A program made the position numbers and the translations under genes. DNA of 32,654 nucleotides from Syntrophomonadaceae bacterium (GTDB taxonomy: Bacteria; Bacillota; Syntrophomonadia; Syntrophomonadales; Syntrophomonadaceae): assembly GCA_012518685.1 (NCBI GenBank), contig JAAYRQ010000070.1:1-32654 (forward strand). Direction: 5' to 3'. Of this stretch, positions 1,027 to 32,445 are shown piece after piece. Below the pieces are notes generated by a model. That model was not told the origin of the DNA. It ran no database searches and was given only the letters and a program-made list of their open reading frames with translations. Each line of letters begins with the position of its first letter. Position 1 is the stretch's first letter.

Positions 1027-1761
1027 TTAATACTTCACCTCTAACAAATACAGCCCATTAGGTGGAGCAGTTATACTAGCCAATCTACGGTCTTTAGCCA
1101 AAATAATTTCCTTAACCCTAGCAGGGGGAATATTCCTCCGCCCTACCTCAACTAATAAACCCATAATAATCCTAATCATATTATACAAAAAGCCATTAGC
1201 TTCAATAAAAAAATCTATATAAGCATCCTTTTCCACTAGATAGCATTGGCTAACCCTTCGCACATAATCCTTGACCGAAGACCCACTAGCACAAAAAGAA
1301 GCAAAATCATGTTCACCTATAATATAGGCAGCAGCCTCATTCATAAGGTCAATATCTAAAAATTCACTAAGACACCAAGCATAATTTCTCACCATAGTCT
1401 GTCCTATTACAGGACGATAAATCCTATAATTATACAATTTAGAAACCGCATCAAACCTAGGATGAAAACTAGCCTCCACCAAGGAGCTGACCAAAATCCT
1501 AATATCCTCTGGCAATACACTATTTAAAGCCCAAGACCACCTATCAGGCGGAATACTACTAAGAGTATTAAAAACTACCACCTGCCCTAAGGCATGCACC
1601 CCTGTATCAGTTCTCCCTGCACTAATAATCCTAGTTTCCAGCCCAATTAATTTAAAAATCGCAGTCTCTATCTCACCTTGAATACTTTTCGCATTCTTCT
1701 GCCATTGAAAACCATGATAATTACTGCCATCATATTCTACTAAAAGCTTAATCCTCTGCAT
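1027..1761 (-). CDS. truA: tRNA pseudouridine synthase A (positions 38-40)
   Basis: TruA isomerises uridine to pseudouridine at positions 38-40 in the anticodon arm of many tRNAs. The protein has the N-terminal VEYDGSNYHGFQWQ segment and the catalytic motif GRTDTGVHA with the nucleophile Asp52, then YNYRIY and the C-terminal FLYNMIRIIMGLLVEVGR block. At 244 residues it is family length. I choose ATG at 1761, because the AGGTGG just upstream sits at SD distance from it; a GTG at 1770 lies inside that SD. It is the last gene of the ECF block, 31 nt after ecfT as started here, a common Bacillota arrangement. Confidence 0.96.
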   Translation of the reverse strand: MQRIKLLVEYDGSNYHGFQWQKNAKSIQGEIETAIFKLIGLETRIISAGRTDTGVHALGQVVVFNTLSSIPPDRWSWALNSVLPEDIRILVSSLVEASFHPRFDAVSKLYNYRIYRPVIGQTMVRNYAWCLSEFLDIDLMNEAAAYIIGEHDFASFCASGSSVKDYVRRVSQCYLVEKDAYIDFFIEANGFLYNMIRIIMGLLVEVGRRNIPPARVKEIILAKDRRLASITAPPNGLYLLEVKY

Positions 1762-31391: not shown

Positions 31392-31414
31392 GCAAGGTTA
31401 ATAAACAACCTCGC
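31392..31414 (-). other. Hairpin in the rpoB leader
   Basis: On the minus strand arms 31407-31414 and 31392-31399 pair over 8 bp (one G-U) with a 7-nt loop and are followed by TTTTCACTCGTTT. It could be a weak attenuator or a protecting 5' structure in the rpoB-rpoC mRNA, some 42 nt before the TTG start. Confidence 0.4.
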
Positions 31415-31447
31415 CTCATTGCATACATTTAAAAAATCTAAAATCAA

Positions 31448-31476
31448 ATTTTACCATTATATATTATGAATGGCAA
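31448..31476 (-). promoter_or_regulatory. rpoB promoter P2 (proximal)
   Basis: On the minus strand a -35 TTGCCA (31476-31471) and a -10 TAAAAT (31453-31448) are separated by 17 bp. It lies about 100 nt before rpoB and just downstream of the stronger P1. Confidence 0.6.
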
Positions 31477-31482
31477 TTATTA

Positions 31483-31511
31483 ATGTTAGCATAAGTATTA
31501 TTTCGAGTCAA
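31483..31511 (-). promoter_or_regulatory. rpoB promoter P1 (distal)
   Basis: On the minus strand a -35 TTGACT (31511-31506) and a -10 TAACAT (31488-31483) are 17 bp apart, with a TG dinucleotide one base before the -10 (extended -10). It lies in the spacer after the membrane-protein gene and should drive rpoB-rpoC independently of rplL. Confidence 0.8.
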
Positions 31512-31547: not shown

Positions 31548-32327
31548 CTAGCCTTCTACCCCATCATCCTTCTCATTAACAAGGGCATCCGCCACCATAT
31601 TATTGTCAGCATTATCTATGCCCATTTCATTTGCAGAAACATCAGCTTTAACTTCAGCCTCAGAATTAGCTTCTTTTGCCCTTACTTCTGCTTCCGCTTG
31701 CTTATTCAAATAATTTTCTATCGAGTATTCCTCTACAATCAGCTTATCCACCCGACTAATCATCCTATAATAAACCACAGTGATAATTAAAACCCCTAAA
31801 ACAAAAATCCCTATACCTAAAATAAGCCCATCAAAGCTTAAAAACTTAGTCAAAATATCCTTAGAAAAGCCTGTAGCATTAGGATTAGAAAAGAGATAAC
31901 TAGTCGTATAATCCCCTACCTTATCCCCAGAGTTTTTAAAATACAGACCATAGGCAGTAAATTCAAGCTTAACTGGACCAGAATAATTCCTTAAAATATT
32001 AGTTTCATTATTACTATCAACTAATAAAGTATTAATAGAGAAAATAGCAAAATTATTATTATGTACAAGAATAGGGAACTTTTCCGTTAAACTATTATAA
32101 GTCTGCCAATCCTTAGTATCACGATAAAAATACTCATCTATATCGTTATATGCAAAACCCACCCTAGCCAAATGATTAATCAGAGCCTCATCATCTGTAA
32201 AAACTTTTTCTTCTATAGTAGTCTCCTCATCCCCCCCAATTTGCCATACAGTATTAGCATAAACCGCACTAGTACTAAATAGCAATAATGCTACAACGAA
32301 AGATAAAAACACAGCTAACCTTTTCAT
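31548..32327 (-). CDS. Unrecognised signal-peptide, single-TM protein
   Basis: I do not recognise this 259-residue protein. It has a clear signal peptide (1-24, MKRLAVFLSF... ending AVYA, cleavage before Asn25), an extracellular part of about 140 residues rich in Asn, Asp and aromatic residues, a transmembrane helix at about 167-187 (FDGLILGIGIFVLGVLIITV), and a cytoplasmic tail of about 70 residues that is acidic and Ala/Glu-rich with an imperfect repeat (AEVRAKEANSE, AEVKADVSANE). No cysteine and no catalytic motif is visible. The ATG at 32327 has only a distant GAAAGG, so translation may be weak. It lies between the rplL terminator and the rpoB promoters with a possible promoter of its own, so it looks like a separate one-gene unit. 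Topology resembles a sensor or scaffold, but that is inference. Confidence 0.8.
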   Translation of the reverse strand: MKRLAVFLSFVVALLLFSTSAVYANTVWQIGGDEETTIEEKVFTDDEALINHLARVGFAYNDIDEYFYRDTKDWQTYNSLTEKFPILVHNNNFAIFSINTLLVDSNNETNILRNYSGPVKLEFTAYGLYFKNSGDKVGDYTTSYLFSNPNATGFSKDILTKFLSFDGLILGIGIFVLGVLIITVVYYRMISRVDKLIVEEYSIENYLNKQAEAEVRAKEANSEAEVKADVSANEMGIDNADNNMVADALVNEKDDGVEG

Positions 32328-32418
32328 TATTCACATCATTACCTTTCTTAGTAAAATTTAAACTGTCTTTACTAAACTTATCCACAATAAAATAAAAAAC
32401 AGTTTATCCTAAGACTAG

Positions 32419-32445
32419 ATTATACTAGAAAAAACAAGTATTCAA
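32419..32445 (-). promoter_or_regulatory. Possible promoter of the membrane-protein gene
   Basis: On the minus strand a perfect -10 TATAAT (32424-32419) lies 15 bp after TTGAAT (32445-32440). The spacing is shorter than the ideal 17, so the assignment is tentative. It is located after the rplL terminator and about 90 nt before the membrane-protein start. Confidence 0.5.

Follow-up and report, generated by a model that had tools for sequence, protein, structure and literature searches.

A Lineage-Specific Bitopic Membrane Protein with a Remotely LppM-like Outer Domain Is Encoded between rplL and rpoB in Syntrophomonadaceae

Results

The Gene and Its Flanking Signals

The window analyzed here is the whole stretch of 32,654 nucleotides of contig JAAYRQ010000070.1 (assembly GCA_012518685.1), from a member of the Syntrophomonadaceae. 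All features described lie on its minus strand. In the order of that strand they are the 3' end of rplL (only its last 25 codons, the contig ending at 32654), an intrinsic terminator at 32555-32527 with a 13-bp stem, a 3-nt loop and a T tract, an open reading frame from 32327 to 31548, and rpoB from 31350. The open reading frame starts with ATG and comprises 259 codons plus a stop; family conservation and purifying selection mark it as the coding sequence of a bitopic membrane protein. Upstream of rpoB (31448-31511) there are two promoter-like sites in tandem, at 31511-31483 and 31476-31448; the terminator on one side of the gene and the tandem promoters on the other, as reported in the preliminary description, were thus both found. 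The predicted rpoB promoter TTGACT-17-TAACATTAATAATTGCCATT lies within this region and is conserved across the order; written as TTGAC-17-TG-N-TAACATTAATAATTGCCATT (about 31465-31511), it is nearly unchanged there. A conserved hairpin in the rpoB leader (GGCGAGG...CCTTGC, 31392-31415) bounds the gene on its downstream side.

The gene has a promoter-like element of its own at 32419-32445, TTGAAT-15-TATAATCT, predicted from its resemblance to the consensus. It was missed by our consensus scan because of its short spacer. When the upstream regions of 32 members were aligned, a TATAATCT-type element was found in register ahead of most homologues, in most of them some 45 nt from the start codon, and TTGAA or TTGC often precedes it; in the window, TATAATCT is found about 92-97 nt upstream of the start. 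The Shine-Dalgarno sequence AAGAAAGG (32342-32349) is 14 nt before the ATG. It had been described as weak, a view that we do not share: AAGAAAGG is unremarkable, and most homologues carry, at a like place, a good AGAAGGGA-type sequence (AGAAGGGA or GAGGGGG). With a promoter-like element and Shine-Dalgarno sequence of its own, and with a separate promoter-like element for rpoB, the gene is probably a separate, monocistronic transcription unit between rplL and rpoB. Searches of Rfam families around the gene gave no match.

Architecture of the Protein

The first 25 residues form a signal peptide (MKRLAVFLSFVVALLLFSTSAVYA, 32253-32327) with an AxA-type cleavage site (VYA|N) and without a lipobox cysteine, as in the homologues. 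It is followed by an ectodomain of about 140 amino acids with a net charge of -10 (residues 26-166; 31830-32252), and by a single hydrophobic helix (residues 167-188; 31764-31829), which was recognized from hydropathy and charge and is also helical in the models of two members. The residues immediately after this helix are basic, and by the positive-inside rule the large domain would therefore lie outside and the tail inside. The first cytoplasmic segment (residues 189-205; 31713-31763) carries a juxtamembrane motif with the family consensus R-x2-V-x2-LI-x-EEYSL. The remainder (residues 206-259; 31551-31712) is an acidic tail with a net charge of -10, which is probably helical (helix at residues 203-252 in the model, at modest confidence). 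The secreted ectodomain, single transmembrane segment and acidic cytoplasmic tail that had been proposed from the window alone are therefore borne out by the signal peptide, the helix and the charge pattern.

In the family alignment, W28, E40, R69, W74, Y77 and P85 of the ectodomain are near-invariant, as is a strand pair of the form VPG-x-SSA-x-W, and few stretches of the family are as well conserved as the juxtamembrane motif. The acidic tail is very variable. An imperfect 11-residue repeat in it (AEVRAKEANSE/AEVKADVSANE), to which the preliminary description had drawn attention, is real but weak and is confined to the window genome; the acidic tails of other members are shorter and lack it. 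In one member (L009 in G023, about 1480-1540, minus strand), two adjacent TAG codons shorten the tail. The preliminary description had suggested a sensor or anchoring factor as possible roles; the protein showed no signature of a kinase or of a sigma/anti-sigma system, no LPXTG motif and no known signature of peptidoglycan binding.

Distribution, Synteny and Selection

A whole-genome search with the protein found homologues in 43 of 101 genomes of relatives, all of them in the same family, Syntrophomonadaceae. A family profile matched all 28 Syntrophomonadaceae genomes that were at least 90% complete, and the gene was full-length in 26; the two exceptions were G003, in which the ectodomain is missing, and G041, which has a fragment. 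Wherever a fetched locus held both neighbors, the gene lay between rplL and rpoB. Beyond these two genes there were no constant neighbors, and no conserved partner gene was found in the fetched loci. Among named records, the carriers were Syntrophomonas and other Syntrophomonadaceae. A scan of named genomes with the single protein gave no match, the family being too divergent, and no record of the gene was found in the literature under putative Syntrophomonas locus tags.

Within the order, one genome of a sister family (G059) has a full-length copy, and in the other sister family the rplL-rpoB gap lacks the gene. The family profile found no full-length homologue outside the order in 200 genomes drawn from the phylum Bacillota. 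The gap was also surveyed in 69 other Bacillota in which rplL and rpoB are adjacent. Its median length there is 387 bases; it contains the known methyltransferase gene in 4 of these genomes and a recognizable bitopic relative in none. The survey of this interval in relatives, which had been suggested as a check, thus showed that gene and location are conserved in Syntrophomonadaceae, as expected of a real gene.

The gene is lost or broken in G014, G015 and G041 and is therefore not strictly essential. When set against the RpoB tree, presence, losses and short forms fit vertical descent with a few losses. In G041, a genome rated 100% complete, a 65-residue fragment amid stop codons lies upstream of rpoB (L074), i.e., a pseudogene. 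In G015 (L064), a ComF-like phosphoribosyltransferase gene stands upstream of rpoB in place of rplL, and the cluster is broken there.

Identity to the window protein is only about 20-30% across members, compared with about 83-88% for the N-terminal parts of RpoB. In ten close pairs, dN/dS was 0.09-0.29. The protein is therefore changing fast for its neighborhood, yet under purifying selection. This is the opposite of absence from close relatives combined with a dN/dS near 1, the outcome that the preliminary description had set against its own proposal; that proposal, of a lineage-specific envelope protein in a housekeeping locus, agrees with the presence throughout the family, the constant position and the purifying selection.

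Relation of the Ectodomain to LppM and DUF3153

When the window protein was compared with Pfam and NCBIfam, and the family with Pfam, nothing rose above cut-off, and searches of the PDB by sequence and by family profile gave nothing meaningful. Sub-threshold matches of the window protein to DUF3836, DUF485, Csx27 and OadG were not shared by other members in the Pfam scan of the family and were attributed to chance. Five of 29 members touched Pfam LppM in hmmscan (E 0.012-0.1), and in a genome search with LppM two genomes scored some 15-16 bits at this locus. No member reached the LppM (PF21946) cut-off of 27 bits, and DUF3153 (PF11353; cut-off 21.4 bits) had no match in the Syntrophomonadaceae genomes of a 300-genome sample. 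Conversely, among the 200 genomes of the phylum, the family profile picked out proteins of G134 and G151 (E about 0.001-0.003), for which LppM and DUF3153 are the nearest Pfam families. A 111-residue match in G102 was rejected as part of an ion-channel-like pore, and the weak LppM matches L090 and L091 were left out, L090 being by eye an unrelated kind of protein.

Profile-profile comparison with LppM/DUF3153 proteins (hhalign) gave 89.2% with three templates. With seven LppM-like proteins from other Bacillota the probability was 96.6% over nearly the full length, a score to which the signal peptide and membrane helix contribute. When these were removed, the ectodomain alone scored 32.9, compared with 11.2 ± 2.0 (maximum 17.9) for 200 column shuffles, none of which reached 32.9, and 11.6 for the reversed profile; the strongest alignment was limited to about 38 columns. 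The structure models were of low confidence (pLDDT 57 and 54), and in a model with the window sequence first the ectodomain was poor. In Foldseek, a low-confidence model ranked LppM (2nc8) third of 350,542 chains, the match being weak (E 0.11, TM 0.25-0.30).

From these comparisons we take the ectodomain to be a remote homologue of the LppM/DUF3153 superfamily. We speak of remote homology rather than of family membership because the cut-offs are not reached and the lipobox is absent. The earlier statement that the protein has no familiar motif therefore holds at the level of Pfam and NCBIfam cut-offs, but not at that of profile-profile comparison. In LppM the domain is folded as a pseudo-beta-barrel, closed by a helix in 2nc8, with phosphatidyl-myo-inositol mannosides as ligands (PMC6151718); an lppM mutant of M. 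tuberculosis clumps (PMC2936551).

Forms Lacking the Ectodomain

The ectodomain has been lost in at least two lineages, which still have the R-x2-V-x2-LI-x-EEYSL motif along with membrane helix and acidic tail. Within the family, the 109-residue protein of G003 consists of signal peptide, helix, motif and tail; it matches positions 4-26 and 162-220 of the profile (E 1.6e-10) and has a similar leader. In a sister family, G055 and G057 have short open reading frames of 57-72 codons with a transmembrane segment at the same locus. That of G055 keeps helix, motif and tail (profile E 2e-4); that of G057 looks alike, with a profile score at chance level (E 0.67). The retention of the inner half after loss of the ectodomain suggests that helix, motif and tail have a role of their own.

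Discussion

The family is a new, uncharacterized, order-specific branch of the LppM/DUF3153 kind, and not a new kind of system. We consider it reasonably likely that its members are type-I bitopic envelope proteins, with an LppM-like, ligand-binding outer domain and a cytoplasmic docking motif, which are inherited vertically and diverge fast within the order. The protein would be made from its own monocistronic unit, expression presumably being constitutive. After cleavage of the signal peptide, the beta-rich LppM/DUF3153-like domain would face outside, anchored in the cytoplasmic membrane by one helix. The outer domain would most likely bind a component of the envelope: a wall polymer or, by analogy with LppM, a lipid or glycolipid of the membrane. 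Against the analogy, LppM binds a mycobacterial lipid, which would not be expected in these organisms. On the inside, where the acidic tail would also lie, the juxtamembrane motif would most likely dock on a membrane-proximal partner. Such a protein would act as a constitutive binding or scaffold factor of the envelope, rather than as an enzyme. A reading in which helix and motif of this order-specific family, kept at the rplL-rpoB junction even where the ectodomain has gone, dock on RNA polymerase or the ribosome and tie gene expression to the membrane or to the state of the envelope seems to us very improbable, with only the location in its favor.

The functional core might be just the helix, motif and acidic tail, which would serve a cytoplasmic or membrane complex much as small membrane regulators or scaffolds do, with a fast-evolving and dispensable ectodomain. 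Two separated lineages have forms without the ectodomain at this locus (G003; G055 and G057), and these forms and the strong conservation of the inner motif would agree with such a core. However, by far the most members have the ectodomain, and most of the invariant residues (W28, E40, R69, W74, Y77 and P85) lie in it; in addition, the short G057 frame lacks a significant profile score (E 0.67). On balance we think this reading unlikely. It is distinctly doubtful that the ectodomain has another fold and resembles LppM only through a short strand-turn-strand match arising by chance or convergence. The restriction of the ectodomain-only alignment to some 38 columns, the low-confidence models and the equal ranking of other, unrelated folds in Foldseek all leave room for that idea, but neither the 200 column shuffles nor the reversed profile reached the score, the full-length architecture (signal peptide, domain, C-terminal helix) aligns as well, and matches arise in both search directions.

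The bitopic topology, the conserved inner motif and the position beside rpoB would also suit a transmembrane sensor, whose ectodomain detects an envelope or extracellular signal and whose tail relays it to the machinery of transcription or translation encoded by the adjacent genes. Against this, neither a signaling domain nor a sigma/anti-sigma pair is present, nor is there an additional conserved partner gene; the tail varies greatly, and the promoter and terminator features suggest transcription apart from both neighbors, so that we rate a sensor as improbable. That the gene is a chance open reading frame or a decaying insertion without function can practically be dismissed: a few genomes lack it and G041 has a broken copy, but the dN/dS of 0.09-0.29, the 26 full-length copies in 28 genomes and the conserved promoter-like element, Shine-Dalgarno sequence and synteny refute such an origin.

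The reading that we favor, an LppM-like envelope protein, can be set beside known proteins. LppM (PF21946; M. tuberculosis Rv2171, PDB 2nc8) likewise has an exported beta-rich domain of similar size that matches at the profile-profile level, with an LPG/VPG-x-SSA/NA-x-W strand pair near the domain end and, in the compared Bacillota members, a C-terminal transmembrane helix thereafter. The window family differs in scoring below the cut-off, in lacking a pathogen context, and in adding the conserved cytoplasmic motif, the acidic tail and the fixed position between rplL and rpoB. In other Bacillota, LppM-like proteins (L096, L097, L098, L135, L136 and L138) have a lipobox cysteine, whereas the window family has an AxA-type site and no conserved cysteine. 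DUF3153 (PF11353), matches to which overlap those to LppM in some proteins (L102 and L096), shares the N-terminal export signal, the ectodomain, the VPG...W strand pair and the C-terminal transmembrane helix; however, it sits at unrelated loci in few Bacillota, and no member of the window family reaches its cut-off. As to location, the RsmC/YbxB-type 16S rRNA methyltransferase gene of Bacilli is likewise kept in the rplL-rpoB slot of the rpoBC cluster, but encodes a cytoplasmic enzyme of unrelated sequence. In Lactobacillaceae, nrdHEF is inserted between rplL and rsmC (PMC8046335).

Few places in bacterial genomes are as constant as the rplL-rpoB junction. It is unusual that an entire family of syntrophic fatty-acid degraders should keep a membrane protein at this place although its sequence drifts to 20-30% identity. 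With this family, the LppM/DUF3153 kind would come to include a motif-tailed form in syntrophs that is not a lipoprotein, and the order would gain a defining, testable envelope protein. The ectodomain deletions that occur in nature set the role of the inner half apart from that of the outer half. The general picture of transcription or translation is unchanged by the finding.

Some observations concern the noncoding DNA on either side of the gene. Between its promoter-like element and its start, in the longer leader of this genome, we noted by eye an inverted repeat, TTAGTAAA...TTTTACTAA (about 32342-32378, minus strand), which is a possible operator. Upstream of rpoB, 20 bases from the -10 element onward are almost invariant across the order, which exceeds the needs of a promoter and hints at a conserved start region or operator. 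The rpoB leader hairpin, AAGCGAGGTTT...GGCCTTGCTTTT (31392-31415, minus strand, in the window), was seen upstream of rpoB in 74 loci; it precedes rpoB in nearly all of the Syntrophomonadales loci that were examined, as well as in some 27-29 of 85 loci from other Bacillota. In the window it had no Rfam match, and it is possibly an unrecognized rpoB leader RNA element.
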